Shown here one piece after another: positions 2,785 to 31,584 of a stretch of DNA of 64,000 nt. Made by a program: the position numbers and the translations under genes. The notes beneath the pieces were generated by a model that did not search any database, had not been told where the DNA came from, and worked only from the letters and a program-made list of their open reading frames with translations. The DNA comes from Ignavibacteriota bacterium. Its GTDB lineage: Bacteria; Bacteroidota; Ignavibacteria; UBA10030. Every line of letters begins with the position of its first letter. Position 1 is the first letter of the stretch. The stretch spans positions 11,566 through 75,565 of the forward strand of contig PLMK01000026.1 of the NCBI GenBank assembly GCA_003142475.1. The letters run 5' to 3'.

Positions 2785-3075
2785 TTCACTTTTTAAATAC
2801 TGGTGCAAAGATGAGCTGCATACTTTGTGTATATCCTTCCGACTTTGAACTTGCATAGTAGGCATCATCAAAAGGATGTTCCAACCAGATTTCGCATATT
2901 GTACTCCTTGATGCTCGAACATACTATTTGTTAGTCATGAAATCTTCAAGTGTTAGTACTCTGGGATAACCCTACAAAGCTCTCATTTGTTGCGGGGTGT
3001 GGTGTGTATCGACAATATTTTCCCCAATCATGAACCACGCGCACATAGGTTGGCGGGCTAAAATATCCGGAATCG
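2785..3075 (-). pseudogene. Decayed duplicate of esterase C-terminal fragment plus GH26 C-terminal fragment
   Basis: Closely similar to 7465-7525 plus 7731-7925 (e.g. 'ggatgttccaaccagatttcgcatattgtac...ttgatg', 'gtgttagtactctggga.aacc.tacaaagctctcatttgttgcgg.gtg'), with stops and frame disruptions. Confidence 0.8.
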
Positions 3076-3084
3076 GCGCTACAA

Positions 3085-7464: not shown

Positions 7465-7735
7465 ATTTTTTTAATAAAGGCGCGAAGATGAACTGCATAC
7501 CTCGTTTATATCCCTCCGGCTTTGAACTCGCATGGTAGGCATCATCAAGAAGCCGAATTTGTTTCCTTTTGATAGCTATAAGGCATATTAATGATCAATT
7601 CATAATCCTGACCTGTAATCTTTGAATGCACACCTTTGATTTCTGTGCCGCGCATTTCGAACCATCGGACACTATCCTTCGCCTGCTGTCCGCAAGCCGT
7701 CGAGCAACCGAGTAATGCAATAATTATTTAGGATG
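7465..7735 (-). pseudogene. Internally deleted secreted alpha/beta-hydrolase (esterase)-like lipoprotein
   Basis: Minus strand reads IIALLGCSTACGQQAKDSVRWFEMRGTEIKGVHSKITGQDYELIINMPYSYQKETNSAS* followed by DAYHASSKPEGYKRGMQFIFAPLLKK in another frame: N- and C-terminal esterase pieces with the middle missing. Confidence 0.65.
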
Positions 7736-7781
7736 TTCCAACCAGATTTCGCATATTGTACATCCTTGATGTTTCAACATA

Positions 7782-10139
7782 CTAATTGTTCGTGTCGAAA
7801 TCTTCATGTGTTAGTACTCTGGGACAACCATACAAAGCTCTCATTTGTTGCGGAGTGTTGTGTGTATCGACAAAATTTCCCCAAATCATGAACCACGCCC
7901 ACAGAGGTTGATGTGCCAAAATATCCGGAGTCGGCACTTCTCCTACTTCCCCTAAAGCAATCACTTTTCCTTGACCGAGATGAGCAAGGTCATCGTGATG
8001 ACTTTGTCTATAATCACTGTGATAGACATCTGTAGCCAGGACATCGACAAAGTCCAACCCCGGGAAATAATCTTCATACGCATATGCTTCATCATTGATG
8101 AGTTGACGCGGTCCATTTGTATTCCATACCCAAATTAAATTGTTGAGCTTATGGTAATGAACAAATCGATCAAACATCATCCTGTATAGTTTTGCAGATC
8201 CATTTTCACCCTTACGATTTCCCCACCAGAACCAAACGCCATTCAGTTCATGATATGGTCTCCACAAAACAGGCACACCTAAAATCTGCAATTCATTGAG
8301 ATATCGAGCTATACTATCCACACGGCTTATCCACTTTAAATTCAGTTTTGTACCTGGTGTTATTAATTCTTCCCATTCCTTATCCGTCATTTTAGCCTGC
8401 ACACTTTCTTTCCATCCGAACGGTGGATCATCTTGCGGCCTCCCAACATGCCACATTAAGGTGATAATATAGCCCTCTTTGAATTTCTTATATGCTGTCT
8501 GGATAAGTGTATCTGTGTATCCTTTATGAAAGTAACCTGCAAAATCGCAGCCCCATATTTCCGGCAATTTTCCAGTAAGTTCTTTGACACGGTTAGGATA
8601 AGTATCTATCCTCCCAACATAATTATGATGCCCGGCGATAATCTTCTTTCCCTGGAATGAATAAAGCTGATCTAGCAGTTTTTTCGCTTCCGGTGTCGCA
8701 TGGTCATTAACAGGTCCATAACGCGGATGTTCCGTGCGTAGTGTCTCATGATTTAACCGATTGATACAATTGATCATTGCGCGTGAAGTGTGGTACGTTC
8801 CCTTCCAGATCGATCCTTTAGGGCCTTTGGCTAATTCGGGTACGATGTCCGTCCCGCCCCAATACCAGCCGCCATGGACTTGATCGATCACGTATCGTTT
8901 GCAATATTCCCATTGCATAACAAATTTCTGATAATATTGTTCGGCATCATTGGGGAAGAGTTCAGACATCATCAGGAATGCATTCAGCGCTTCCACTTGT
9001 GGCCACCATTCTTTTGTGTTCCGAACAATCGTTGCGCCTTTCTCTCCGGGGAAATAATAACCTCCATCATAAATACCTCCGTGTTCCTTATCCCAGCCGA
9101 ATCGTAATGCATGATCGACCATCTTCTTCGCAATTTTGAGGGTGGCGGTATCGTTTTTGATTCCCAGTGCTTCTGATGCCTCCAACATGAGATATGCCGT
9201 TTCAACATCATGGCCAAATGAAACATGGTCATATTCATAATTTTTTTCTCGAGCAGTGGCAGAAGAATCCCTATAAGAAATAGGTGTCCAATCCCGTTGA
9301 AAAAACAAGGTCAAATATCCTTTATCCGTCGTAATAGTATCCCGCACGAGCCGAAGCATAGACGCTAATCGTTCTTTCAGTGTAGAATCCGGCCATACCT
9401 TATAAAGCTCGGTAAAACATTCAAGAATATGAATTGAAGAATTCTGATCCTTGGGCGGTGAAATTTTATATCTGCCTTGAAAACGAATATCTTCCTTTGG
9501 AGGCTGAAATGTTATTCCATCGGGGAATGGGGTTCCGTCCCTCGACATAAATTGAAAATATCCGCCGTACTTCGGATCATAACTATATTTATCCAGCCAC
9601 CTGAATGCATCCTGCGCCATTTTCAATGCGACAGTATCATGAGAAGTATTGAAATAGGCCGCTAATCCATAGATAGCAAATGCCTGCCCGTATGCGAGTT
9701 TCAGAATCTGGCCCTGTTCCTTTTTTGGCTCGCCGGTTCTTGTAACTAAATTATAGAACCCGCCATATTCTTTATCCCACATGGCATCTTTCAAATACTG
9801 AACACCATGCTTCGCCATATCCCGAAAGACATTATCTTTCTGATAGAACAGTGCAGCGTTGGATCCGGACCAGATGTGGCGCGCCTGCGTCACGATCATT
9901 TTATCCTGCGGACCTTCCACCCGTCCTTGATAATTGAGGTCGCTGAAGTAACCGCCGTAGACTGAGTCAATGCAGGTCGGATACCACTGCTTCAGTTCAT
10001 CGCGTAGAACAGTTTGCATCTCTGTTGAGATCCGGGACTTTTGATTGTCAAGGGAATCAATATTGCTCTGAGCACATCCGAAGGAAAATACCATGAAAAT
10101 CATGAGACTCCAAATCAAAGTATTTTTTATGTATCGCAT
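7782..10139 (-). CDS. Lipoprotein fusion: N-acylglucosamine/cellobiose (mannobiose) 2-epimerase-family domain plus GH26 endo-beta-mannanase
   Basis: Signal peptide/lipobox FSFGCAQ; AGE-family motifs (VTQARHIWS; DQNSSIHILE; DHVSFGHDVETAYLMLEAS; WKGTYHTSRAM); GH26 motifs (IIAGHHNYVGRID; ITLMWHVGRP; VLWRPYHELNGVWFWWG; VIALGEVG). Confidence 0.9.
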   Translation of the reverse strand: MRYIKNTLIWSLMIFMVFSFGCAQSNIDSLDNQKSRISTEMQTVLRDELKQWYPTCIDSVYGGYFSDLNYQGRVEGPQDKMIVTQARHIWSGSNAALFYQKDNVFRDMAKHGVQYLKDAMWDKEYGGFYNLVTRTGEPKKEQGQILKLAYGQAFAIYGLAAYFNTSHDTVALKMAQDAFRWLDKYSYDPKYGGYFQFMSRDGTPFPDGITFQPPKEDIRFQGRYKISPPKDQNSSIHILECFTELYKVWPDSTLKERLASMLRLVRDTITTDKGYLTLFFQRDWTPISYRDSSATAREKNYEYDHVSFGHDVETAYLMLEASEALGIKNDTATLKIAKKMVDHALRFGWDKEHGGIYDGGYYFPGEKGATIVRNTKEWWPQVEALNAFLMMSELFPNDAEQYYQKFVMQWEYCKRYVIDQVHGGWYWGGTDIVPELAKGPKGSIWKGTYHTSRAMINCINRLNHETLRTEHPRYGPVNDHATPEAKKLLDQLYSFQGKKIIAGHHNYVGRIDTYPNRVKELTGKLPEIWGCDFAGYFHKGYTDTLIQTAYKKFKEGYIITLMWHVGRPQDDPPFGWKESVQAKMTDKEWEELITPGTKLNLKWISRVDSIARYLNELQILGVPVLWRPYHELNGVWFWWGNRKGENGSAKLYRMMFDRFVHYHKLNNLIWVWNTNGPRQLINDEAYAYEDYFPGLDFVDVLATDVYHSDYRQSHHDDLAHLGQGKVIALGEVGEVPTPDILAHQPLWAWFMIWGNFVDTHNTPQQMRALYGCPRVLTHEDFDTNN

Positions 10140-10180: not shown

Positions 10181-12658
10181 TTAACGTAAGAGCATCATTT
10201 TCTTTTGAGATATAAATGTTCCCGCTTCAAGGCGATAGAAATAAACACCTGATGCGAATTGGCCGGCATCGAACCGGACACGATATGTTCCGGCTGTCAT
10301 ATAGTTATCCGAAAGTGTCGCCACAGTTTGCCCCAACAGATTAAAGACAATCAACTTGACATTGGATGCCACAGGCAATGAGAACTTTATTGTTGTGGAT
10401 GGATTAAATGGATTCGGATAGTTCTGGCCTAAGTTGAAAGTAGCTGGAATTTGTTGGGCTTGGTCGTCGGTGATTCCTGTGACAAATGGCAAACCGTATA
10501 CCTCAAATTCCCAAAGCGAAAAACCCCATTGTGTTGCTCTGGCCATACCGTTCATGCGAATGTATCTGCCAGCTCCTGATAGATTTGTAAGAATTTCTGT
10601 GCCGCCAGGACTATTGGTTGAAAAATAGATTTGAGTCCAGGTGAGCGTATCATCTGAAACTTCGATCTTATACACTTTGCCGTAAGCGGTTTCCCACTTC
10701 AACACAACACGCTGAATACTAAACTTCTGGCCAAGGTCGACGCGTATCCATTGATTGTCAGACCATGCGCTGCTCCATCGAGTCCCGGAATTTCCATCTA
10801 CAGCTAATGCAGGATTCGCTGCAGTAGTAGGTGCACCATTAATAATTTCGCCGGAAGAAGCAGCTACAGGCCGGTTCAGTGCCCGATTGATCGAAAGTAC
10901 ATTTGTCAGACGTATGGTTACGAATGCTGTGTCAGTCACTTGACCGGTCGCAATGAGTTCAAATGTCGTATCTGCCAACAGCTTTACTTTCATTGAATCG
11001 CTTTGGGCTACTGGAACGCCGTTCAATGTTACGGATGAACCGTCGACGGTATGCCAAGCAATCATACTTGAATCTCCGCTAGCAACGGTTAATGGATTTG
11101 CAGTAAAAAAGACAATGCTGCCGGAGAGTAAAACGTTAACCGTGATTTGCACAGAGTCGACAACAACTCCGCGCGCGACGAGATTATAATTCGTCGTCAA
11201 GTCCGGCGCTACAGTTAACGTGTCACTACTGTTAACGCTTTTGCCGTTAAGTGTTACAATTGATCCTGAAGTCGTTTCCCAAGAAAGTAAACTGGATTTT
11301 CCCTTTTCAATCACTGTAGAAGTTGCAGTGAATAATGAAATCTTGCCGGTCGGAATCACAACAGCAACATCAGATTGATGATTATCCCACATCGATTGCA
11401 TACCAGCGAGCATATGCGCCTGACTGGAAATCTGTACATCCGTCCATGACCACGCAAGCGATCCTGCATAACCCAAATGATAGAGCGTATCATATAATGC
11501 TGATTGATCAATATTCACCGGATTCCCATGACCGGATTCCATTGCATACTCCGCAACAACAATGGGCTTGCCTGTTCCCCACTGAACTGCCAGCGCATTA
11601 AATGGTGAAGTGGAAATGGGCGTTGATGATGAATAATAATGAACAGAAAAGAAATCAAGTTTTCCCTTCGCATCACCACCTGCATTCACTAAACGATCGT
11701 CACGGTAATAGTTCATATTGGGCCCTGCTGCAATTTTCTCTATATGAAATAAAATCTCATCAGGGGTGAGATTCGATCGGTATATTTGCTTCAAGTCGGT
11801 GCCTATCTGTATTCTTTCAGCGGCCGTCAATTTTGAAAGTCCCGGTGTAACTTTCGCTAGCGTATTATCGGTAAGAGCGTAGAAACTCCAGGAGCCGTTG
11901 GTTACAAGGGCAGAGGTATCTGCGCAATGGATTGCGCCTGAGCAAAGGTTCACAAACCGCTGGATGGAAGACATGGGTACGTGGTTAACATCACCCCAAC
12001 CAAATTCATTGCTCATGCCTTCGGGTTCATTGAAGATCTCCCAGGCAATAATAGCCGGCTGATGTTTCAGTGAATCGACCATTGGTATGAGACAAGTATT
12101 AATATATCTGCGGGTGTAATTAGTATCGTTCAGAAGCAAAGTATTTCGATTAAGAACTGTAGTACTATTGGAAGATCTGAGCATATCAAACGACCACAAA
12201 CATAGGATGACACCCACTTTACGTTCCCAGGCAAGGTCGAGCACCTTTTGAATATCAGCGATGCACACCGCGCCCGGACCGATCACGAATCCCGAGTCGC
12301 TGCTAAATTGCGGCGTGTTCACTCCATTCGTATGGAGCCACCAACGCACCACATTGCCGCCTTGGTCATGCACCTGTTGAAAAATATTTGCAAACTGATT
12401 GAAATTCACAGTCCCCGGACCCAGGTCAGAAGCAAAGTTGACCCAGGCAAGATTTGCTCCGCTTAAAAATAATTGCTGATTATTAAAAGCAATCCGCTGC
12501 TTCGGCTGCGCAGAAACAGTTTGCGACAGAAGGAATAATCCAACACTCACTCCAACACACAGTGAAAAAAAATATTTAAGAGCCCCGCCCGAAATTCTTC
12601 CAGGATGTCCCATAGATAATAATTCTCGCTTTCTCTGAAGAGCAGCACCGTTTTTCAT
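10181..12658 (-). CDS. GH5-like beta-mannanase with Ig-like repeats, F5/8 type C (discoidin-like) module and T9SS sorting domain
   Basis: AWEIFNEPEG (acid/base) and IVVAEYAMES (nucleophile region); two Ig-like repeats with 'TLNG..V' cores; NRPVAASSGEIINGAPTTAANPALAVDGNSGTRWSSAWSDNQWIRVDLGQKFSIQRVVLKWE; CTD NYPNPFNPSTTIKFSLP...KKMMLLR. The true start may be internal (e.g. MGHPGR at about 12610). Confidence 0.85.
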   Translation of the reverse strand: MKNGAALQRKRELLSMGHPGRISGGALKYFFSLCVGVSVGLFLLSQTVSAQPKQRIAFNNQQLFLSGANLAWVNFASDLGPGTVNFNQFANIFQQVHDQGGNVVRWWLHTNGVNTPQFSSDSGFVIGPGAVCIADIQKVLDLAWERKVGVILCLWSFDMLRSSNSTTVLNRNTLLLNDTNYTRRYINTCLIPMVDSLKHQPAIIAWEIFNEPEGMSNEFGWGDVNHVPMSSIQRFVNLCSGAIHCADTSALVTNGSWSFYALTDNTLAKVTPGLSKLTAAERIQIGTDLKQIYRSNLTPDEILFHIEKIAAGPNMNYYRDDRLVNAGGDAKGKLDFFSVHYYSSSTPISTSPFNALAVQWGTGKPIVVAEYAMESGHGNPVNIDQSALYDTLYHLGYAGSLAWSWTDVQISSQAHMLAGMQSMWDNHQSDVAVVIPTGKISLFTATSTVIEKGKSSLLSWETTSGSIVTLNGKSVNSSDTLTVAPDLTTNYNLVARGVVVDSVQITVNVLLSGSIVFFTANPLTVASGDSSMIAWHTVDGSSVTLNGVPVAQSDSMKVKLLADTTFELIATGQVTDTAFVTIRLTNVLSINRALNRPVAASSGEIINGAPTTAANPALAVDGNSGTRWSSAWSDNQWIRVDLGQKFSIQRVVLKWETAYGKVYKIEVSDDTLTWTQIYFSTNSPGGTEILTNLSGAGRYIRMNGMARATQWGFSLWEFEVYGLPFVTGITDDQAQQIPATFNLGQNYPNPFNPSTTIKFSLPVASNVKLIVFNLLGQTVATLSDNYMTAGTYRVRFDAGQFASGVYFYRLEAGTFISQKKMMLLR

Positions 12659-14863
12659 TTAACGCACGAGCAGCATTTTCTTTTGAGAAATAATATTTCC
12701 CGCTTCTAGCCGATAGAAATATACTCCCGAAGCGCATCGGGCTGCATCGAATGTCACAGCATACGCCCCTGCTTCCATAAATTTATCGACAAGCGTTGCT
12801 ATTTTTTGACCCAGGAGATTATAGACCGTCAATTTAACAGTGGATGCTTTTGGTACTGAAAAATCTATAGTGGTAGACGGATTAAAGGGGTTGGGATAAT
12901 TCTGCTCAAGAGAAAATATTCCCGGATTTTGAGAAGTCGTCGTTACAGATGTTACGGCACTTGTCGGCAATGCGATGCAATCCAGATACATCCACCCCCA
13001 CCACATATGCATTTGAATTGTATTGGTACCTTGAGCCAAATTTACATTTATAATATTCTTGTACCACGTCGAATTCACAGGAGTTGTAAATGTCACAGTG
13101 TCGGCGCGAACACCATTGATATCGATGTATTGGGATTTTGGAGATCCATACGGCAGCGCATATTCGAATTCAAGAGGATAAGTTCCAGCCATCTGTACAT
13201 TATTGATGTACCAGGTTATTTTACTTGAAGTATCCGTTATAGCGACATATTTATTGTTACTTGCAGTATTATCGTTTTTTACAGCAAGTCCCGAACCTTG
13301 CAATGCGGCAAACTCCGCTTCAAATTTCGTCATAGGTGGTGTACCGATTGAAAGCAGAACCGTGTTTGATACTTTCTGATGACTGCCGCTGTTCGTCGCG
13401 ATTGCTGTTATAGTATAACTTCTCGGCGGAATGCTATTCCAACTCCAGCTGTAAAAGGATGTATCATGTGAAGTAGAATACGGAGTGAAAACTGCACCGA
13501 TTTTCGTCGTATCGGAATAGAAAACAACTGAAGAAATTGGCATGGTATCCGAGACTGTCACATAAAATGTTAAACTCGTACTATCGGGATAGCTTGCATT
13601 TGTTGGAGGATTTGTGATATTAATGGACGGCCAACTATATGTAATAACATTCACAGCAACATCAGATCGATGGTTATTCCACATCGATTGCATGCCTGCA
13701 AGCATGTGTGCCTGACTGGAGATCTGTACATCAGTCCAAGACCAGGCCATTGCACCGGCATAACCAAGATGATAAAGCGTATCGTACATCAGTGACGGAT
13801 CTATGCCCGGTGGAGCACCTTGGCTGCTTTCCATTGCAAATTCAGCTACAACAACAGGTTTAGAAAGTCCGAATGAAACCGGAGTATGAAGAAATGGAGA
13901 CGTCGAAAGTCCGGTAGAACCCGAATAATAATGTACAGAATAGAAATCGAGTGCTCCTTTTGAATCGCCGCCTGCAGCAATAAGACGATCATCGCGGTAA
14001 TAATTTAGGTTTGGTCCGCTAGCAATGTTATCCAAATGGGATATAATTTCATCTGGTGTAAGAGTCGATCTATATTTTTGTTGGAAGAAAGCAGCTATAT
14101 GTGTTTTTTCGGTGGTACTCAGCTTCGAGAGTTTCGTACTAGCCTTCGCAAGAGGATTGTCAGTCAGCGCATAAAAACTCCAACACCCATTCGTTACTTG
14201 CGCCGTGGAATCCTCTCTGTGAATGGCACCTGCACAGAGGTTCACAAATCGCTGGATGGAAGACATGGGAACATGCTGAACATCGCTCCATCCAAATTCA
14301 TTGCTCATTCCCTCCGGTTCGTTAAAAATTTCCCACGCAATAATAGCAGGATGATGTTTTAGAGAATCAACCATAGGAATAAGGCAATTATTAATATATC
14401 TGCGCGTATAATTCGTATCATTTAACAACAGAGTATTCCGATTGAGCACTGTTGAATCATTCGTAGTTTTCAACATATCAAATGACCAAAGACACAAATT
14501 AACACCGACGCCTCGTTCCCACGCAAGGTCGAGTACCTTTTTTATATCGGCGATACAGACTGCGCCGGGTCCGATTACATATCCTGAATCGCTGCTAAAT
14601 TGCGGAGTGTTCATACCATTGGTGTGCAGCCACCAGCGGACAGCATTTCCGCCGTGATTGTGAACCTGAAGCAAGATATCTGCAAACTGATTAAAATCTG
14701 TACTGCCAGGCCCCAGATCTGAAGCAAAGCTGACCCATGCAAGATTTGCTCCATTTAAAAATAATTGCTGATTGTTATATGCTATGCGTTTGGGTTGTGC
14801 GAATGCAGAGAGAGTGAGCAGGAATAATCCCGCGACTAGAACCAAGAATGTATGGTGACTCAT
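12659..14863 (-). CDS. GH5-like beta-mannanase with Ig-like domain, CBM35-like module and T9SS sorting domain
   Basis: Highly similar N-terminal catalytic domain to 10181-12658 (AWEIFNEPEGMSNEFGW; VVVAEFAMES); CBM35-like FEAEFAALQGSGLAVKNDNTASNNKYVAITD...WGWMYLDCIALP; CTD NYPNPFNPSTTIDFSVP. Confidence 0.85.
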   Translation of the reverse strand: MSHHTFLVLVAGLFLLTLSAFAQPKRIAYNNQQLFLNGANLAWVSFASDLGPGSTDFNQFADILLQVHNHGGNAVRWWLHTNGMNTPQFSSDSGYVIGPGAVCIADIKKVLDLAWERGVGVNLCLWSFDMLKTTNDSTVLNRNTLLLNDTNYTRRYINNCLIPMVDSLKHHPAIIAWEIFNEPEGMSNEFGWSDVQHVPMSSIQRFVNLCAGAIHREDSTAQVTNGCWSFYALTDNPLAKASTKLSKLSTTEKTHIAAFFQQKYRSTLTPDEIISHLDNIASGPNLNYYRDDRLIAAGGDSKGALDFYSVHYYSGSTGLSTSPFLHTPVSFGLSKPVVVAEFAMESSQGAPPGIDPSLMYDTLYHLGYAGAMAWSWTDVQISSQAHMLAGMQSMWNNHRSDVAVNVITYSWPSINITNPPTNASYPDSTSLTFYVTVSDTMPISSVVFYSDTTKIGAVFTPYSTSHDTSFYSWSWNSIPPRSYTITAIATNSGSHQKVSNTVLLSIGTPPMTKFEAEFAALQGSGLAVKNDNTASNNKYVAITDTSSKITWYINNVQMAGTYPLEFEYALPYGSPKSQYIDINGVRADTVTFTTPVNSTWYKNIINVNLAQGTNTIQMHMWWGWMYLDCIALPTSAVTSVTTTSQNPGIFSLEQNYPNPFNPSTTIDFSVPKASTVKLTVYNLLGQKIATLVDKFMEAGAYAVTFDAARCASGVYFYRLEAGNIISQKKMLLVR

Positions 14864-14986: not shown

Positions 14987-17722
14987 TTATTTGAGAAGCA
15001 GCATCTTCTTCACTGAACTGAAGTTTCCGGCTTCTATGCGATAGAAATACACGCCCGATGCCAGTCTGCTTGCATCAAACACAACAGATTGCTGTCCTGC
15101 ATTCATACGAGTGTCAATCAATGTACGAACTTGTTGACCCAGGATGTTATACACGAGCAACTTCACATTGGAAGCCTTTGCTAATGAGAAGTTGATCGTT
15201 GTTGTTGGGTTGAACGGATTCGGATAGTTCTGCTCAAGCGCAAATGCGGTCGGCATCGATCCATTATTATTGACGCCTGCCTGGATATCCTGTTTTATTA
15301 ACTGGACATAGTCAACATTCACGCCGCCGCCGCTTAGCACTAACTTATGTGTACCTGCAGCTAACGTAAAGGTCGGTGATACAACATCATTACCCGTAGA
15401 ATCTAACTTCGTCGTACTACCAGTTTGATATTTGAACGGAAGATTTGCAGTCGCAAGAGTTGTGCCTGCTTCTGATATCACTATTGGTGCATTCGTGGTA
15501 GCAAGATTCTGCCCAAATATTCGAAGTTTGTATGTTCCACCGATATCTGCTTTAGCAGTAATAGTATCTTTCCCTGCAGTACCCAAAGATACGTATTGGA
15601 AGTTGGATGCAACCCAAGTAATACCTATAGCAGAAGCTGTCGCACTTGTCGATACAGCGGTTGCACCGGTTAATTTTATCGTATCTGTACCGGCTACATT
15701 ATATCTGGCGAGATCGACTTCGGCTATCTGTAGAGTGCCCCATCCACCGCTTTGAAACACACCGATTGTATTTGATCCCGCTGTTAAATCGAATGCCACT
15801 GTATTGCTCGAAGCATAAACGGTATTCGTTGGATCCATGGTCATCCATTGCCAGCCAGTGCTCGAGACACCTTTCGTCCATTGAATATTGCCATTAGATG
15901 CTGAGTTGGCACCATCACTAATTGGATCACCACCCCAACTATATGTATTTATATCACCGATTCGGCCACCATTAACCTGGAAATCCATTCCAATTGATCC
16001 AGTATTGCCTTGCATATTAATCTGCCATTTTGCTTGGTATTGTCCTGCCTTACCAGAAGGTACATTAAATGTCCACCCAAGCGTTCCCACATTGGCATAG
16101 TTCCAATAGATGAACCCTTGATTGGTTCCAACAGCAGAGGTACCACTTATTCCGCCATTCTCTGCTTCGATCTTTGCTTTGACCGAATCTATAACTACTT
16201 GACCGGCTAATTTTTCGATATCTGCAATATTCTTAGTTTGATTAGCTAAGAACGTTGCTTTTTGAGTTGGAAAATAGTTAAGATCACCGATAGGCAAACC
16301 ATCAGTGCCAGCAGTCATAAGTGTGGCATCGGTATACGCAAAGTTTTCCGGTAACGGCCACGTATCTAAAGCATAATCTGTCTGAGGATGGTAGAAGAAT
16401 GTGGTTGATGCCGCACTACCACGGACTTGCGTAATAAACTTCCACATCGAGTCCACCATTGTTGAAGGAGATGCGCTAATCGATGCTGGATATTCTCCCA
16501 CCTTTTTCCAGTCTGTATCATATAGATAATTAGGCATACCTGCTGGTAGTGCCGATAACCAGTTCGTATCTGAAACAAACATATGGCCATTACCGCCCGC
16601 AAGGCTATATGGAGTTAGATAATCGGCTTTAGAAACTGGATCAATAAACCATGCGCGTGTTATGCTATCAGGGCTTCCATATTTTGCTTTAATCAATGGA
16701 TCGAGATATGCATACTCCTTTGTAATAACAATTCTGCGCGCTTGTTCTGTACCATATATTGCAGGTAAGGTACCAATGCCAAATAAACCGCTGTATATCA
16801 TTCTCGCATCACGGCCGGCTGTTTGCATATCGGCATATCCTTCACCTTCCCACCATCCATTGATGATGAGATTGTTTGCAAAGTATGCATTTTGATACCA
16901 ATTACCTGAATTGGACATAACGCCTCGGCCTAAATTCACCACCGTATTGTGGTTATATCTTAAGTACTTTGCAGAACCACCTTCCATCTGGAACGTGGTA
17001 AATCCAACATTAAAGAATGTGTTATTTTCCATGATAACCGAGTCTTGATCCGCCCAAATAGAAATACCACGGCCAGACCATTGTTGTGTCGGTGGTTTTT
17101 CTTCTAAATTACGGAATTTACAGTTTCGAATATAACATTCGTTACCCGTTCCCGTGAAAACCACAAGTGAAAAATTACTGTGTTCAAACACACATCCGTC
17201 AATGATAAACCTGCAATTACTTCCACTAAACACGACAGGTTGATATGCACCCTGTCCGCCATTATCAGCATACATTCCGCTAATCCAAATGTTTTTTAAT
17301 GTTGTATTAGCTCCCGCTGCCAGGAGTGCTCCAGATGAACCCGTACCATCAGGGCGAGTGCCATTCATTTGAAGTACCGGTGGGTAGTGGCCTGCGGGGA
17401 TACTCGACATCGGATCTGCAACAATTACTAATGGAAAGCTATTACTGACTGCATCCACTTCCCAATATTGTCCATCCATTTTTAATTTGTAGACGCGGGT
17501 TGAACTCTTTCTTGCACCGCCTGCAACCGTATCGCTATTTATAGCGTCTCGAAGTGCGTTTACTCTTATATTGAAACCGGTTTGATAACATGCAACATCC
17601 ATAGTATCTCCCCTTATCACATTTGTGGTATCCGCCACTGTTTGCGCCCTAACTTGCCGGTAAGGTAAAACCAACACTCCAACAAGAAATATAAAGAGCG
17701 AAAAATTTAAAAAAGTTTTCAT
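14987..17722 (-). CDS. Secreted right-handed beta-helix (pectate-lyase-like fold) protein with carbohydrate-binding-like modules and T9SS sorting domain
   Basis: Signal peptide; beta-helix coils (TTLKNIWISGMYADNGGQ, CRFIIDGCVFEHSNFSLVVFTGTGNECYIRNCKFRN, DSVIMENNTFFNVGFTTFQMEG); two CBM-like 'KIEAENGG' / 'YKLRIFGQN' regions; CTD NYPNPFNPTTTINFSL. Confidence 0.75.
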   Translation of the reverse strand: MKTFLNFSLFIFLVGVLVLPYRQVRAQTVADTTNVIRGDTMDVACYQTGFNIRVNALRDAINSDTVAGGARKSSTRVYKLKMDGQYWEVDAVSNSFPLVIVADPMSSIPAGHYPPVLQMNGTRPDGTGSSGALLAAGANTTLKNIWISGMYADNGGQGAYQPVVFSGSNCRFIIDGCVFEHSNFSLVVFTGTGNECYIRNCKFRNLEEKPPTQQWSGRGISIWADQDSVIMENNTFFNVGFTTFQMEGGSAKYLRYNHNTVVNLGRGVMSNSGNWYQNAYFANNLIINGWWEGEGYADMQTAGRDARMIYSGLFGIGTLPAIYGTEQARRIVITKEYAYLDPLIKAKYGSPDSITRAWFIDPVSKADYLTPYSLAGGNGHMFVSDTNWLSALPAGMPNYLYDTDWKKVGEYPASISASPSTMVDSMWKFITQVRGSAASTTFFYHPQTDYALDTWPLPENFAYTDATLMTAGTDGLPIGDLNYFPTQKATFLANQTKNIADIEKLAGQVVIDSVKAKIEAENGGISGTSAVGTNQGFIYWNYANVGTLGWTFNVPSGKAGQYQAKWQINMQGNTGSIGMDFQVNGGRIGDINTYSWGGDPISDGANSASNGNIQWTKGVSSTGWQWMTMDPTNTVYASSNTVAFDLTAGSNTIGVFQSGGWGTLQIAEVDLARYNVAGTDTIKLTGATAVSTSATASAIGITWVASNFQYVSLGTAGKDTITAKADIGGTYKLRIFGQNLATTNAPIVISEAGTTLATANLPFKYQTGSTTKLDSTGNDVVSPTFTLAAGTHKLVLSGGGVNVDYVQLIKQDIQAGVNNNGSMPTAFALEQNYPNPFNPTTTINFSLAKASNVKLLVYNILGQQVRTLIDTRMNAGQQSVVFDASRLASGVYFYRIEAGNFSSVKKMLLLK

Positions 17723-17790: not shown

Positions 17791-20700
17791 TTAAAAAGTA
17801 TACCGAAGACCAACATCAACAGTAGAGCCATAATAATAAGCATACGTTGGGTTTATAGTCCGTGTGCCGGCCAGATAACTTACATCATATGTGTTTGTTA
17901 AATTATTAAGATTTGCATAAAGCTGTAGAGAACTTCCAAACTTCTGTTGAATTGCAAGATCCCAGCGATCGTATGATCCTGTAAAAGAATCTAACAACGG
18001 AATCGCGCCGACACTGGATACTTTATCGGATTGGTAAAGATAGGAAGCACGTATCGAAAATCCTTTGTACTCATACCCCATTGTAGCATTTAAAATATGC
18101 GAGGGTTGATCCGGCATTCGTTGCGTCCTTGTCGTGGTAAGATATTGATGGACTGTAATCTTCCTCCTGTGTGTTGGATCCGTTGGATCATTTTCTTTTG
18201 TAATGAGTCCTGCATATTGCGGTACATCTACAGTAGAGTTTATGTACGTCCAGTTAATATTGAAGAGTAAACCCGTAAATGGCTGGGGGAGATACCAAAA
18301 ATTAGTCTGCCATTCAAATTCGACACCCCGGTACTGCGCCGGTGTTGGATTGTTCATCCAAGTATTAATCTTCTGACTGCCGGTAAGCCAATTTGGATTG
18401 GTAACATTCAATTGTGCATTGATCATTTTGTAGATCACCGTGTCTACACTGGTTATCCCCTGATACATAATCAAATTATCAATAGATTTATAAAATCCAG
18501 AAACGCCCACAAAACCGATATATTTATTAACAATGGAAAGCGCGGCATCAACATTCTTTGAACGTGAATCTTTTAATGATCCATTTGCGGCGACGATACT
18601 GGTACTATAATAATCAAGTGTTGTAATCGGCGCATACATACTGTAATCCGGACGGGTTACGGTTTCTGTTCCGGCAAGATGAATTCTCAGCCAATCAAAC
18701 GGCTGGATCTTTAAGTGAACCATCGGAAGCCAAAATGAATTTTCTCGGATATTTTCATTCGTAGAAAAGTCGCTCGGCAGAGATTCGGCTCCAGCGTTGT
18801 TCGATGCGCGAAAACTCTGTCCATGATATTTTGTATAATCTGCATCATAACGTACACCAGGAATGAGTGTAAGATATGGTCCAACTTTAATTTCGGCCAT
18901 AAGATATCCCGCCTGATATTGTTCGATACCATCATAGTCATACCCCATTGAACCTATGGATATTCTTTGCCAATCCCTGGAACCTAAAGTTTGAAGCACA
19001 CTCGTTAATTTATGCATAAGGCTTAAATCGGGAGATACCCCAAATCCATGATAAGTGCCATTTAAAAAATTCGAGGGGACAGTATATCCACGATCGAAAT
19101 TCCAAAGATTCCAAACTCCCGTACTTGCTATCGCTGTTGAATCTCTTGTTGTATTAAAATCATTAGGATATGCTTGAGACAATGCATGAACAAGGTCAGA
19201 ATTGACGCCAGTCCATCCGTTGCCGTATTGAAGATTATCATGGCCCCATTGCTCTTGATTAAAAGTTCTCGTGAGCCATCTAAATTTTCCGCCGGTTTTA
19301 ATATACCCATTAATATTATTGGTAACGGTAAAGGGAACTTGGAAATTAAACTGCGCGGTTTTTTGATTTTCAACAAGCCATGTGCTATAAACAAATATCG
19401 ATTTAAGGCCGGTTGTCGATGCGGTACCTGTGCTTGCCACAATGGGTGTCTTAAATGTGTCAACATACACTAAGGGAGTTGAAGCATATATTATATTTGT
19501 AGGTACACTAACACCCCCGTTTTCCTGTGAAAATTGCCATCGATAGTCATTAGGATCGTCTGTTTTTGATCCTGAAGCAGAAAAACTCACATCATATTTT
19601 AACCATCCGAAATCCTGCATTGTTCCAAAACTGCTTGTATAGATGGATGTAGTAGAGATATTATCATCTAACTCATAGTAACGGGTACCATGTCCATCTC
19701 CAGTATATAATTGATCGGACCTATAGGTTCCTTCCGTCTTCGCCTGATTATAAAAACCGTTAGCAGTGAGTTTACCGTATGGAATTTTATAATCCATTAA
19801 AAGGTTAGCGCCGAACCTTTTTTTAAAGCTTTCGTCTCTTCTTTGTGTATCTTTATAGTATGTAAAGTAATCAATATCGCCGAGTGCACCTGAATTAGAT
19901 CCCTGACGATACTCTGCATCGATTTTATCAGCATTACGATTATTTCGATCGGTATTTAAACCCAAAATAACACCAAGGTTATTATTGAAGAAACGGTCAC
20001 TTACACCAAAAACGCCGCTGTAGTTACCATAATATTTATTAAGGTTGCTATATCCACCCTGAAGAGTGGCGTTTGTCTGAAATTCTTCCGGAGCTTCTTT
20101 CAACCGTAAATCTACCGTCCCGCCGAGAGCATCGGCATCCATATCGGGAGTATTAGCTTTTTTAACTTCAATACCATCAAGAACGTTAGATGAGATGAGT
20201 GATAAATCAACGCTCCTATCATTATTGTTTGTTGCCGGTAGTGCGACACCATTCACTGTAACAGTATTATACTTTGGAGCCAACCCACGGATCGCTATGG
20301 AAGTAGCTTCACCATTATATCGATCAATCGAAATACCGGGTAAACGGCCTATTGACTCTGCAGCACTTGCATCCGGTAATTCCTTAATACGATCGGCGGC
20401 AACAATGTTGGATATTGTATTCGATGCTAATTGTTGGTTTATTGCGGCTTGTTGTCCCCTTGCTTGAGCAGTAACAATTACTTCTTCTCCTTCAATTGCT
20501 TGAGGCGATAGTCGAAATTCCTGTTCAAACACACCATCTTCAGGAATTGTCACCTGCACGGTAACAGGCTGATATCCAATGTAGGAAATCTTCAAGGTCT
20601 GCTGACCTGCCGGTACACCATAGATAGTAATCGAACCATCAACGTTTGCAGAAGCCCCCAGACTTGTATTGAGAACTACTATATTCGCTCCAATAAGTGG

Positions 20701-20841
20701 ATCGTTTGTTGTTTTGTCAAAAATATGTCCTTTGATAGAACCTGACCCGGCAGCGTATAAAGATTGAGAGGCTAACGAAAATGCTGCTACAAGTATAGCG
20801 CAAACAAGTGAAGTTCGAAAACGAGATGTACCAATAGACAT
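17791..20841 (-). CDS. TonB-dependent outer membrane receptor with carboxypeptidase-regulatory-like N-terminal domain
   Basis: GSIKGHIFDKTTNDPLIGANIVVLNTSLGASANVDGSITIYGVPAGQQTLKISYIGY; TonB-box-like EEVIVTAQ; plug motifs SIGRLPGISIDRYNGEATSIAIRGLAPKYNTVTVNG; C-terminal aromatic VDVGLRYTF. Confidence 0.92.
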   Translation of the reverse strand: MSIGTSRFRTSLVCAILVAAFSLASQSLYAAGSGSIKGHIFDKTTNDPLIGANIVVLNTSLGASANVDGSITIYGVPAGQQTLKISYIGYQPVTVQVTIPEDGVFEQEFRLSPQAIEGEEVIVTAQARGQQAAINQQLASNTISNIVAADRIKELPDASAAESIGRLPGISIDRYNGEATSIAIRGLAPKYNTVTVNGVALPATNNNDRSVDLSLISSNVLDGIEVKKANTPDMDADALGGTVDLRLKEAPEEFQTNATLQGGYSNLNKYYGNYSGVFGVSDRFFNNNLGVILGLNTDRNNRNADKIDAEYRQGSNSGALGDIDYFTYYKDTQRRDESFKKRFGANLLMDYKIPYGKLTANGFYNQAKTEGTYRSDQLYTGDGHGTRYYELDDNISTTSIYTSSFGTMQDFGWLKYDVSFSASGSKTDDPNDYRWQFSQENGGVSVPTNIIYASTPLVYVDTFKTPIVASTGTASTTGLKSIFVYSTWLVENQKTAQFNFQVPFTVTNNINGYIKTGGKFRWLTRTFNQEQWGHDNLQYGNGWTGVNSDLVHALSQAYPNDFNTTRDSTAIASTGVWNLWNFDRGYTVPSNFLNGTYHGFGVSPDLSLMHKLTSVLQTLGSRDWQRISIGSMGYDYDGIEQYQAGYLMAEIKVGPYLTLIPGVRYDADYTKYHGQSFRASNNAGAESLPSDFSTNENIRENSFWLPMVHLKIQPFDWLRIHLAGTETVTRPDYSMYAPITTLDYYSTSIVAANGSLKDSRSKNVDAALSIVNKYIGFVGVSGFYKSIDNLIMYQGITSVDTVIYKMINAQLNVTNPNWLTGSQKINTWMNNPTPAQYRGVEFEWQTNFWYLPQPFTGLLFNINWTYINSTVDVPQYAGLITKENDPTDPTHRRKITVHQYLTTTRTQRMPDQPSHILNATMGYEYKGFSIRASYLYQSDKVSSVGAIPLLDSFTGSYDRWDLAIQQKFGSSLQLYANLNNLTNTYDVSYLAGTRTINPTYAYYYGSTVDVGLRYTF

Positions 20842-23915: not shown

Positions 23916-25142
23916 ATGCTCTATATAATACTATCAGCAATGAAGGAAAAAGCAATGACGAGAACAGAATTTGATCAAAAGGTACAGCGGTTATCAAAAG
24001 ACCATGAAACTTTTCTTTCTACAAAGAATGTAAAAGTGGAAAGGGGAAACGGTATCTACCAACGATATGTCAATCCGGTTGTAACGGCCGCGCATACTCC
24101 TCTTTTCTGGCGATACGATCTGAACTATAAAACCAATCCATTTTTGATGGAAAGAATAAGTGTCAACGGCACATTTAATTCTGGTGCAATCGAACATAAC
24201 GGAAAAATTCTTTTATTGGTTCGCGTAGAAGGAACAGATCGAAAATCTTTCTTTGCCGTTGCAGAATCTCAAAATGGTATAGATAACTTTCGTTTCTGGG
24301 ATTACCCGATTCAACTCGCAGAAACATCTGATGCCGATATCAATGTGTACGATATGCGTCTTGTGAAACATGAGGACGGATGGATTTACGGTTTATTCTG
24401 CACAGAGCGAAAAGACCCCAACGTTCCCCGAACCGATACGTCTTCTGCTATTGCACAATGCGGTATAGTGAGAACAAAAAATCTATTAGAATGGGAACGG
24501 TTACCGGATTTAGTAACAAAATCACCACAGCAAAGAAATGTTGTTCTTCATCCTGAGTTTGTTCATGGAAAGTATGCATTTTATACACGGCCGCAGGATG
24601 GTTTTATCGAGGCAGGATCCGGTGGCGGTATCGGGTGGGGACTATCTGAAAAAATCGAAAATGCAGTAATCGACAATGAAACGATCATCGATGATCGCGC
24701 TTACCATACTATCAAAGAAGTGAAGAACGGTTTGGGCCCCGCACCGATTAAAACAGCAAAAGGATGGCTCCAGCTTGCGCACGGTGTTAGAAACACGGCT
24801 GCAGGATTGCGTTACGTTTTATATATGTTTCTTACTGATTTAAAAGATCCAACTAAAGTTCTTGCAAGGCCGGGCGGATATTTCCTAGCCCCTGATGGTA
24901 TAGAGCGTGTCGGTGATGTATCTAATGTCGTCTTTAGTAATGGATGGGTACTGCGGGCGAATGGTGAAGTACTCATTTATTACGGTTCATCAGATACAAG
25001 AATGCATGTCGCAGTATCGACCGTCGATCAACTTCTTGATTACGTTCTTCATACACCTGAGGATGGATTACGGACAGGCATAAGTGTTCAACAGAGAATT
25101 CAATTAATAAAAAAGAATCTCGAATTGCTTGGTCGTAAGTAG
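23916..25142 (+). CDS. GH130 phosphorylase (4-O-beta-D-mannosyl-D-glucose phosphorylase-like)
   Basis: [93 protein letters not shown]. The start may be the internal ATG at 23940 or 23955. Confidence 0.88.
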
Positions 25143-25208: not shown

Positions 25209-26594
25209 TTAATTGGGAAGCAATTCTGCGGTTTTATGCCAATAGTCGATAAACTTGTTCACTTCTTTACTGGCATCTCCTTGAAGGATAGTAGTACAAT
25301 TCATCAAAGTTCGCCCAGTATGATATGTGCATTTCCACATATGACTTTTAGGACCAGTTCGAAAATGCGGTTCTTTATCAATGCCGCCTTCAAACCAATC
25401 TCCACCTTTTGCGTCAATGATATAGGATTGTACATACTCCCATTGACGGAGAAAATATTCGTAATAACGAGCCTCCTTCGGAAATATTTTAGAAAATAGA
25501 AGTAACGCATTTAATGCTTCTGCTTGTGCCCACCAATTTTTCGTGTCTTTCACTATCCTGCACTTGTCTTCCCCTTTAAAATAATATCCGCCGTCATAAA
25601 ATCCGCCAACTTTTTCATCCCATCCATACTTCATCGCATGGTCAAGCATTTTTTTTGCGATGGTGAGCGTACGGAGATCATTATCCGACTGCAACGCATA
25701 GGAAGCTTCCAGCATGAGGAATGCAGTTTCATAATCATGACCAAACGAAACATGATCCAACCCGAAATTTGCTTCACGCTCTTCTTGGGAACTATCGCGG
25801 AACGACACAGGTGTCCAATCATTATGGAAGAATAATTGCAGATAACCTTGAGGAGCCACTTGTATATCGCGGATAAGTTCGAGAAGCGCCTGAAGACGCG
25901 TGCGAACCAAGGGATCCTTCCATACATGATAGAGTTCGGTGAGTGCCTCTAACAAGTGAATTGAGGAATTTTGATCCTTAAATCCAAGCTCATTTCCGTC
26001 AGAAGCAATCGTTTTATACTCCGAGGAGCGATCAAACGGATTCCCGTTACGCATTATGAATTGAAAGTACCCTTTACCTTTCCGATCATATGAATGCTCT
26101 TCAATCCAGCGAAAGACTTTCTGCGCGAATTCTAAAACCTCCGGATCATGAGTTTGTCCATACAGAGCGGCAAGAGCATACACCGCAAAGGCGTTTCCAT
26201 ACGCACGCTTTTCATCCCGCCATCCGTTCACATCCGACATCCCGCCGTCACGACTCCGAATTTGGAAAAAGCCACCATATTTCTCATCCCACATTTTATT
26301 CTTTAAAAATGGAAAGCCATGGCGTGCCATGTCTTCATATTCCTTAACTCCACCGAAATATTGACTTGCCTTGGAGAGTGTCCAGATATGCCGTGCTTGC
26401 GAGACAATCATCTTCTCCTGCTGCGGCATAACTTTCCAATCGTGAGATATGTTTGTAAAATAACCTCCGCATTCTTTATCAAGTACCAACGGATACCAAC
26501 GTTTCAGTATTCCGTTCATAAATGCTTCCTGCATTTTTTTAATCAGTGCTGATTCTTTTTCCATATTGACTTCTTTCTCGAATTTTTTTTGCAT
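25209..26594 (-). CDS. AGE-family cellobiose/mannobiose 2-epimerase (cytoplasmic)
   Basis: No signal peptide; motifs VSQARHIWTLS, DQNSSIHLLEAL, DHVSFGHDYETAFLMLEAS, WKCTYHTGRTLMNC; paralogous to the N-terminal half of 7782-10139. The start may be 26564. Confidence 0.88.
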   Translation of the reverse strand: MQKKFEKEVNMEKESALIKKMQEAFMNGILKRWYPLVLDKECGGYFTNISHDWKVMPQQEKMIVSQARHIWTLSKASQYFGGVKEYEDMARHGFPFLKNKMWDEKYGGFFQIRSRDGGMSDVNGWRDEKRAYGNAFAVYALAALYGQTHDPEVLEFAQKVFRWIEEHSYDRKGKGYFQFIMRNGNPFDRSSEYKTIASDGNELGFKDQNSSIHLLEALTELYHVWKDPLVRTRLQALLELIRDIQVAPQGYLQLFFHNDWTPVSFRDSSQEEREANFGLDHVSFGHDYETAFLMLEASYALQSDNDLRTLTIAKKMLDHAMKYGWDEKVGGFYDGGYYFKGEDKCRIVKDTKNWWAQAEALNALLLFSKIFPKEARYYEYFLRQWEYVQSYIIDAKGGDWFEGGIDKEPHFRTGPKSHMWKCTYHTGRTLMNCTTILQGDASKEVNKFIDYWHKTAELLPN

Positions 26595-26724: not shown

Positions 26725-27867
26725 TTACTCTTTATCGCCAAATATTTTTAACTGATCCATTGCATGAATTAATTGATCGGAAATTTTCCGGTGTGTCTCC
26801 ACCGTTGGGTGACCATTGGCAACATAACCATCCGGGAAATCATCAAAGTGAGTATAGTAAATATCTTTATTCCCGTTCTGGCGTTCCTCATCCACAATTT
26901 GTTGCACATTCTTCTGAATCCATTCCGGATATGCCGCAACGGCAAGAATGGTAACTCCTGGATAGATCGTACGGACAGTTGTGATAAAATCATGGTACTC
27001 TTTTCGGAAGACAGCAGATTTTTCTTCTGTCACCGTACCGTCTTTTTCTTTGAGGCCGGAATGGTCGTTCAAACCTAAACAGATCACTACAAGATTGGGA
27101 ATCCACTGTTTGAAATCCCACTTTGGTTCAGGCGCCTCCATCAGTGCACGGTTAAATAATTTTGGTATCGTTGCATCGACTTTCCCCTGCCAGTCACATA
27201 CCATTCCGGCGCCTGAACGGCAAGTGGTTTGGTATTGTGCGTTATAATGTCGGGCTACGATTGCTGCGAATCCTTTATCAATATTGGTAACGGGGAATCG
27301 TCCTTCCCAAGGCAATTCTTGGACCGTTGCTTCATTGCTCTCAGCAGCTGTGAACGAATCCCCAATGAATTCAATTTTTCGTATTGGTTTTGCCGACGGG
27401 CGAAGAAGCTCCGCACTTTCATCGAGTAAGAGACCTGATATTGAGAATACCGCATCAAACATAATATTTCGTTTACTGAATAAAAGAGTATGGCGTGTAT
27501 TTGCTAAACTATCAGAAAGTATATAATCTGCTTCACCTCTTATTGTTGCATGAAGAACCTTAAGAAATTTGCCGTCAATATAAACGTTGTAATAATTGAT
27601 ACTGTCTGTCATGCGGATTCCGACGCTTGTTCCGCTAAACTCAGCAAAAAGATATACTCCAGGCCATGAATGCCGTGGATGAAGCGAGTCAGTCATATCC
27701 CATCTGCCATAATATTGAATGAAGGGATTATTCGCAGGAATAAATTGTTTTGAAAATGACATCGTACTGGCTCCCAGAACGAGAAATATAAAAATAATAG
27801 ACAGAGATCGATAGACATACTTCATACACCTATTCGCTTTCTTCATCTTTGATGATTGCGGTTTCAT
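26725..27867 (-). CDS. CE2-type SGNH/GDSL acetyl esterase (no T9SS tail)
   Basis: NPFIQYYGRWDMTDSLHPRHSWPGVYLFAEFSGTSVGIR; RKIEFIGDSFTAAES; NLVVICLGLNDHSG; GHPTVETHRKISDQ. Confidence 0.85.
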   Translation of the reverse strand: MKPQSSKMKKANRCMKYVYRSLSIIFIFLVLGASTMSFSKQFIPANNPFIQYYGRWDMTDSLHPRHSWPGVYLFAEFSGTSVGIRMTDSINYYNVYIDGKFLKVLHATIRGEADYILSDSLANTRHTLLFSKRNIMFDAVFSISGLLLDESAELLRPSAKPIRKIEFIGDSFTAAESNEATVQELPWEGRFPVTNIDKGFAAIVARHYNAQYQTTCRSGAGMVCDWQGKVDATIPKLFNRALMEAPEPKWDFKQWIPNLVVICLGLNDHSGLKEKDGTVTEEKSAVFRKEYHDFITTVRTIYPGVTILAVAAYPEWIQKNVQQIVDEERQNGNKDIYYTHFDDFPDGYVANGHPTVETHRKISDQLIHAMDQLKIFGDKE

Positions 27868-30612: not shown

Positions 30613-31584
30613 TTACTTTTTCAGCAATTCTTTCCATATAAGTGCGGCAGCTCCCAGAATTGCTGCATTTCCCTTCGGCAAACCCGACGGTAATAACCGC
30701 ACTTTGTTTTTAAAGATACCGAGAAGAAATTCTTCCATATATTTCTTTGTTGGGATAAAAATAAAATCTCCCGCTGCCGCCAATCCTCCGAAAAGAATAA
30801 TTGCTTCCGGACTTGTATGAGCAATAGAATCTGCAAGTTTCAATCCGAGATATTTCCCTGTCAAATCGAATGCTTCTAATGCGAGTTTATCTCCATGCTG
30901 TGCTGCTTCGAAAATGTGTTTCGATGTAATACTTTGCGGATTCATTTCGCGTAGTTCACTTGGCGGCGTAGGTGCTTTGAGAAGCTCTTCTACCGTCCGG
31001 CAAATTCCGCTTGCTGATGCATACGTTTCCAAGCATCCGCGTCGCCCGCAACCGCACTTGCGCCCATTCGGATCAACAATGGTATGACCGATCTCTCCGG
31101 CAAAACCATCATGGCCGTAAATAAGTTCTCCATTTGCTACGATCCCGCTGCCCAGACCGGTTCCCAGTGTAATCTCAATAAAATCTTTCATTCCTTTAGC
31201 TGCTCCAAACAACTGTTCGCCCAGTGCAGCGGCATTTGCATCATTAGTGAGTGCTATGGGAATGGAATACCAGCGGCGCATCGTCATAACAACATCGACA
31301 TATTTCCAGCTCAAATTTGGAGGTTGCTCGATGGTACCTTTATAGTAATTGGCATTGGGAGCTCCCAGACCAATACCAATAAGATTCAGTTGATCTTTTT
31401 GGGTCGTAAAGAGTTTCGTTGCTTCTATATGAAGCCGTTCAAAAAATTCATCGGCCGGCCGCTGTGCTTCCGTCAACATTTCCCCCTCAGCGAGAAGATT
31501 TCCAGTCTTATCGACATAGCCAAATTTTGTATTGGTACCTCCGATATCAACACCAAGCACTACTTCTTTCTGATTCATATTCAT
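30613..31584 (-). CDS. ROK-family sugar kinase (glucokinase-like)
   Basis: VLGVDIGGTNTKFGYVD; TNDANAAALGEQLFGAAKGMKDFIEITLGTGLGSGIV; GHTIVDPNGRKCGCGRRGCLETYASASGI. Confidence 0.92.
   Translation of the reverse strand: MNMNQKEVVLGVDIGGTNTKFGYVDKTGNLLAEGEMLTEAQRPADEFFERLHIEATKLFTTQKDQLNLIGIGLGAPNANYYKGTIEQPPNLSWKYVDVVMTMRRWYSIPIALTNDANAAALGEQLFGAAKGMKDFIEITLGTGLGSGIVANGELIYGHDGFAGEIGHTIVDPNGRKCGCGRRGCLETYASASGICRTVEELLKAPTPPSELREMNPQSITSKHIFEAAQHGDKLALEAFDLTGKYLGLKLADSIAHTSPEAIILFGGLAAAGDFIFIPTKKYMEEFLLGIFKNKVRLLPSGLPKGNAAILGAAALIWKELLKK

Follow-up and report, generated by a model that had tools for sequence, protein, structure and literature searches.

A putatively exported fusion of an AGE-family 2-epimerase with a GH26 domain in a β-mannan gene cluster of an Ignavibacteriota bacterium

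In published mannan pathways, mannobiose is epimerized in the cytoplasm, and the resulting mannosyl-glucose is then phosphorolyzed (PMC6385246, PMC12704710, PMC13276840). The stretch of Ignavibacteriota DNA analyzed here (64,000 nucleotides; the window) contains a gene in which an AGE-family 2-epimerase is joined to a GH26 glycoside hydrolase behind an apparent export signal. A first-pass annotation of this gene, made from the sequence, had proposed that the GH26 part releases mannobiose, which the epimerase then converts to mannosyl-glucose before uptake. The locus raises the question of what an epimerase might do outside the cytoplasm, and in which order the two halves of such a protein would act.

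The fusion gene and its export signal

The gene (7782–10139, minus strand) runs from ATG to stop without internal stop codons and encodes 785 residues. Pfam searches placed GlcNAc_2-epim (PF07221; 141 bits, cut-off 23.4) and Glyco_hydro_26 (PF02156; 161 bits, cut-off 20.2) in this one open reading frame, in agreement with the single polypeptide read by the first-pass annotation. The AGE domain, delimited by PF07221, the structure 3wkf and an AF2 model, spans residues about 36–466 (8742–10034, minus strand); the GH26 domain, delimited by PF02156, the structure 6q75 and the catalytic residues E631 and E731, spans residues about 471–785 (7785–8729, minus strand). A linker is practically absent, as similarity to solved structures extends to about residue 465 for AGE and resumes at about residue 472 for GH26.

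Among 98 genomes searched from the window's order, eight from three families carry intact fusions, including that of the window (G000, G030, G043, G044, G058, G063, G069 and G080), and three further copies that are broken or cut by a contig end (G059, G060 and G064). The seven other full-length fusions are 60–69% identical to that of the window, and a Bacteroidetes MAG (L004, isolate UBA10030) also carries the fusion. Because seven other genomes of three families keep the gene intact, an assembly or frameshift artefact joining two ORFs, which the first-pass annotation had considered as a reason to discard its reading, can be excluded. An 875-residue open frame in G524, examined as an independent second fusion, was rejected, as it consists of two genes a few bases apart with their own signals. 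The AGE-GH26 fusion is a new architecture and a new compartment for known families; no description of it, or of an exported AGE, was found in the largely open-access literature searched.

The N-terminus of the window's protein (10074–10139, minus strand) contains a signal peptide with a hydrophobic core and the lipobox MRYIKNTLIWSLMIFMVFSFG/C22, conforming to the PROSITE PS51257-type pattern with the Cys at positions 15–35. A strict lipobox is present in only two of ten fusion copies, the window's and one other, while the remaining copies start with other hydrophobic signal sequences, the hydrophobic stretch being weakest in L086. Thus, the lipoprotein-like, exported protein of the first-pass annotation holds for the window copy, with its signal and Cys22, but the lipobox is not a family-wide trait; across the fusions, the signs of conservation concern export rather than lipidation. 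Judging from N-terminal pattern and conservation, we infer that the fusion acts beyond the inner membrane. A periplasmic location is the most likely, since its closest GH26 relative has been placed there and a TonB-dependent receptor is encoded in the same gene run.

A mannan cluster with a second, cytoplasmic epimerase

Upstream of the fusion gene lie two genes for predicted T9SS-secreted, GH5 mannanase-like proteins (10181–12658 and 12659–14863, both minus strand), tandem paralogues that are 60% identical and differ in their accessory modules (F5/8 C in the former, CBM35 in the latter); the best PDB matches of the CBM35-containing protein are the animal β-mannanases 2c0h and 3vup. They are followed by genes for a T9SS-secreted right-handed β-helix protein (14987–17722, minus strand) and the TonB-dependent outer-membrane receptor (17791–20841, minus strand), both of which recur as neighbors of exported AGE genes in several relatives. 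Further along, the cluster encodes a GH130_1-type 4-O-β-mannosyl-glucose phosphorylase (MGP) without a signal (23916–25142, plus strand; 586 bits to 3was), an exported CE2-type esterase (26725–27867, minus strand), a GH2 enzyme with mannosidase-type Ig domains and a signal peptide (27864–30518, minus strand), a ROK-family sugar kinase (30613–31584, minus strand) and a gluP-type MFS sugar permease scoring above the NCBIfam cut-off (31581–33032, minus strand). The gene run holds two CE2 esterases in all. A decayed partial copy of the 3' end of the fusion gene and its downstream flank is found at 2790–3080 (minus strand), just upstream of a CE2 gene (529–2721); it comprises roughly the final 49 codons of GH26, interrupted by one TAG, and 209 bp and 82 bp of it are 88% and 84% identical, respectively, to stretches within 7467–7937.

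The combination of GH26, AGE and GH130_1 in one locus is shared with mannan pathways of the Bacteroides fragilis/ovatus type, whose epimerase is described as cytoplasmic; to these, the window adds an exported epimerase fused to GH26. A bifunctional GH26/GH5_4 protein of Segatella copri (PMC12704710) is likewise an exported mannan enzyme with two catalytic domains, but both are hydrolases and an epimerase is not included.

The window also encodes a cytoplasmic counterpart of the exported epimerase (25209–26594, minus strand). As the first-pass annotation had pointed out, this paralogue retains the catalytic residues of the fusion's AGE half. It lacks a hydrophobic N-terminus. In a wider AGE tree that included cellobiose 2-epimerases (CEs) and the Runella epimerase, built with a quick method, the fusion's AGE half falls into a clade whose members are exported throughout Bacteroidota; the tree requires two switches between exported and cytoplasmic forms, and a 28-row cytoplasmic clade with the window's paralogue is nested within the exported AGEs.

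The two halves and their order of action

The catalytic set of Rhodothermus marinus cellobiose 2-epimerase (RmCE) is fully kept in the AGE half (R87, Y150, N233, H237, H310, E313, W379, E383, W445 and H450) and invariant in 10 of 10 aligned fusion copies, ruling out a dead AGE domain; in particular, the His and Arg residues whose substitution would have weighed against the first-pass annotation (R87, H237, H310 and H450) are unchanged. In the GH26 half, both catalytic motifs noted by that annotation are indeed present, with their glutamates (E631 in RPYHE, E731 in GEVG).

The closest solved structure of the GH26 half is GH26A of Muricauda sp. MAR_2010_75 (6q75; 390 bits, 50% identity), an extracytoplasmic enzyme that shares the catalytic motifs but stands alone, whereas the window's GH26 is the C-terminal half of a fusion. 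Tree and alignment place the GH26 half in the Muricauda GH26A clade, including an insertion after strand β6 (NGPRQLINDEAYAY, residues 675–688; 8076–8117, minus strand) that is matched in 6q75 and in all fusions and absent from PaMan26A (3zm8). Muricauda GH26A is periplasmic, was inactive on the tested mannans and manno-oligosaccharides and has subsite +2 blocked by a loop; its authors proposed a reducing-end exo enzyme for manno-gluco-oligosaccharides (PMC9860051). By alignment, the conserved insertion is a candidate for this loop, and subsite +2 is probably blocked in the fusion as well. The notion of a GH26 mannanase releasing mannobiose is therefore doubtful for an enzyme of this type.

Because the same two enzymes are fused or adjacent in many related bacteria, we suggest that AGE and GH26 probably cooperate beyond the inner membrane, with the reducing ends of mannan fragments as their target. 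Our preferred reading, held tentatively and at slightly less than even confidence, is an exported two-domain enzyme of a β-mannan/glucomannan cluster that first epimerizes and then clips the reducing ends of imported oligosaccharides. Imported manno- and glucomanno-oligosaccharides would be acted on in the periplasm, where the AGE half would first turn the mannose at the reducing end into glucose. The GH26 half would then cut the last linkage, with mannose at subsite −1 and the new reducing-end sugar at +1. Leftover disaccharides would pass to the cytoplasmic AGE and MGP, and monosaccharides to the MFS permease and the ROK kinase. We favor this order because AGE, by turning a mannose end into a glucose end, would supply the very substrate proposed for Muricauda GH26A. 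It is consistent with the conservation of the fusion and of its AGE active site, with the traits of Muricauda GH26A and the retention of the 6q75 insertion in the fusions, and with a cluster encoding MGP, GH5 mannanases and CE2. On the other hand, Muricauda GH26A did act on bloom mannan: bloom polysaccharide lost its LM21 mannan epitope upon treatment (PMC9860051), a result not readily expected of an enzyme with purely exo action at the reducing end.

The reverse order of the first-pass annotation, in which GH26 makes mannobiose, AGE converts it to mannosyl-glucose outside the cytoplasm and the product is taken up and phosphorolyzed by cytoplasmic MGP, appears to us rather unlikely. It draws support from the MGP gene in the cluster, from the intact AGE site and from the precedent of Bacteroides ovatus, B. 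cellulosilyticus and Segatella copri, whose periplasmic GH26 enzymes yield mannobiose (PMC13276840, PMC12704710). However, the GH26 half is of the Muricauda GH26A kind, akin to an enzyme inactive on the tested oligosaccharides and with subsite +2 blocked; moreover, a cytoplasmic AGE already lies beside MGP, so that a further, exported enzyme for this reaction would be superfluous. Export, intact sites and a link between the halves thus stand from the earlier proposal, while we favor epimerization before cleavage over its order of reactions.

The AGE half may epimerize either an oligosaccharide end or a free monosaccharide. RmCE is its closest solved structure (3wkf; E=1e-41), at about 26% identity in structural alignment, a much weaker match than that of the GH26 half to 6q75. 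Structure prediction, which the first-pass annotation had put forward as a check, returned an AGE-family fold for this half, with TM scores of 0.86–0.89 to CE and to the Runella epimerase; the GH26 half was modeled poorly (pLDDT mostly under 50), since only two fusion sequences were usable. With RmCE (3wkf, 9l8i) and Segatella copri EpiA, the AGE half shares the (α/α)6 fold, all catalytic residues and the mannan-locus context; it differs from these enzymes in being exported, in being fused to GH26 and in its α7-α8 loop (residues 285–306; 9222–9287, minus strand). This loop, a marker of the clade, has 22 residues, compared to seven in RmCE and 5zig and 30 in the mannose/glucose 2-epimerase of Runella slithyformis (8h1k–8h1n), with which the AGE half has the fold, the catalytic residues and a long α7-α8 loop in common. 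At 172 bits, the AGE half stays far below the cut-off of 800 of the NCBIfam EpiA equivalog, and on this score is classed as an EpiA relative, not as an EpiA equivalog.

These similarities invite another explanation, in which the AGE half would function as a mannose/glucose 2-epimerase. In that case, GH26 would free mannose as a reducing-end exo enzyme, AGE would interconvert it with glucose and a gluP-type permease would import the products. The Runella enzyme is the best Foldseek match of the AGE model, on a par with CE, the loop is clearly longer than that of CEs, and a gluP-type MFS permease is encoded in the cluster. The long α7-α8 loop of the Runella enzyme reportedly excludes disaccharides, and we take a Trp/Asp motif in this loop and an Asp at the position of RmCE N196 to be markers of mannose 2-epimerases. 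Yet the loop Trp is absent from the loop of this clade, and the N196 position is occupied by the CE-type Asn233. In addition, both in the window and in G080, a cytoplasmic member with the same loop is a neighbor of MGP, a position at which one would expect a mannobiose epimerase; this speaks for disaccharide activity in the clade. We therefore consider this explanation unlikely. By the markers compared, the AGE half is neither a standard CE nor of the Runella type, and its earlier description as a cellobiose/mannobiose 2-epimerase needs qualification in view of the loop.

Unfused pairs and other partners in relatives

In 17 genomes, an exported AGE and a GH26A are encoded by unfused genes no more than about 3 kb apart, that is, in G134, in eight genomes of family f23 and at 8 of the 11 GH26A loci examined in family f31. 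Among the 299 genomes of f23, 20 carry an exported AGE, 28 a GH26A and 18 both; GH26A thus occurs in 18 of 20 genomes with an exported AGE, compared to 28 of all 299 (Fisher p=7e-20, without correction for relatedness), and in 8 of the 18 the two genes are arranged in tandem or convergently within about 3 kb. This co-occurrence argues for a working link between the two halves, as the first-pass annotation had supposed, although it is partly explained by both being mannan-locus genes. At three f31 loci (L184, L185 and L189), an additional RmCE-type epimerase without a signal lies next to GH130, so that exported and cytoplasmic epimerases coexist.

GH9 is a frequent third partner. In the window's order, it lies next to the exported AGE or the fusion in 10 genomes, and it likewise adjoins the exported AGE at most f31 and f23 loci read; at the same 8 of 11 GH26A loci of f31, exported AGE and GH9 stand in a row, and in G474 (L124:3032–6898) a single 1289-residue ORF joins an exported GH9 to an AGE of the same clade. 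In the preferred reading, GH9 would make the same cut as GH26 where glucose is penultimate. A more general proposal, which we regard as possible but doubtful, is a conserved extracytoplasmic system in which AGE resets each reducing-end mannose of (gluco)manno-oligosaccharides to glucose, which is then taken off by GH26A or GH9, both with a preference for glucose at +1; mixed chains would thereby be degraded stepwise from the reducing end. If so, GH26A would act where mannose is penultimate and GH9 where glucose is, and the inactivity of Muricauda GH26A on ordinary manno-oligosaccharides would be explained. The proposal bears on the substrate of a GH26A type whose crystal structure is solved but for which all oligosaccharides assayed stayed uncut. 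The pairing of the exported AGE clade with GH26A, fused or adjacent, across distant Bacteroidota implies that a step preceding uptake has been overlooked. Against epimerization before cleavage, no GH9 of this type turned up in the genome to which the window belongs, and several relatives retain an exported AGE while lacking GH26; consequently, neither GH26 nor GH9 is obligatory for the exported AGE.

That the two domains merely share a secretion and anchoring unit, with independent activities, would agree with the persistence of the exported AGE after several losses of the GH26 half and with its fusion to GH9, but it is quite improbable, given that the same two enzymes are repeatedly paired in three arrangements (fused, tandem and convergent) in distant families.

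The fused GH26 halves form one clade (support 98/95), with the standalone GH26A of G134 as its sister (100/98). In G134, the GH26A gene immediately follows a gene for an exported AGE, in the same orientation and in the order seen in the fusion. Standalone AGEs from G027, G061, G062, G065 and G070 nest among the fusions in the AGE tree, pointing to repeated loss of the GH26 half. The simplest history is therefore one fusion of neighboring genes followed by several such losses.

Other contexts of AGE genes were also encountered. On a plasmid of Spirosoma oryzicola (L089:12028–14674), an exported AGE of this clade lies beside a DUF1343 gene. Since this copy stands outside a mannan locus, which also tells against tying exported AGEs to mannan cleavage, some of them may serve other sugars. 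In G322 (L125:7920–10454), an 845-residue ORF combines an exported AGE with a C-terminal domain that, judged by eye, resembles CE2. A plasmid of Pontibacter sp. G13 (L088:11881–14237) carries separate, adjacent genes for a GH26-like protein and an AGE, the latter without a signal.
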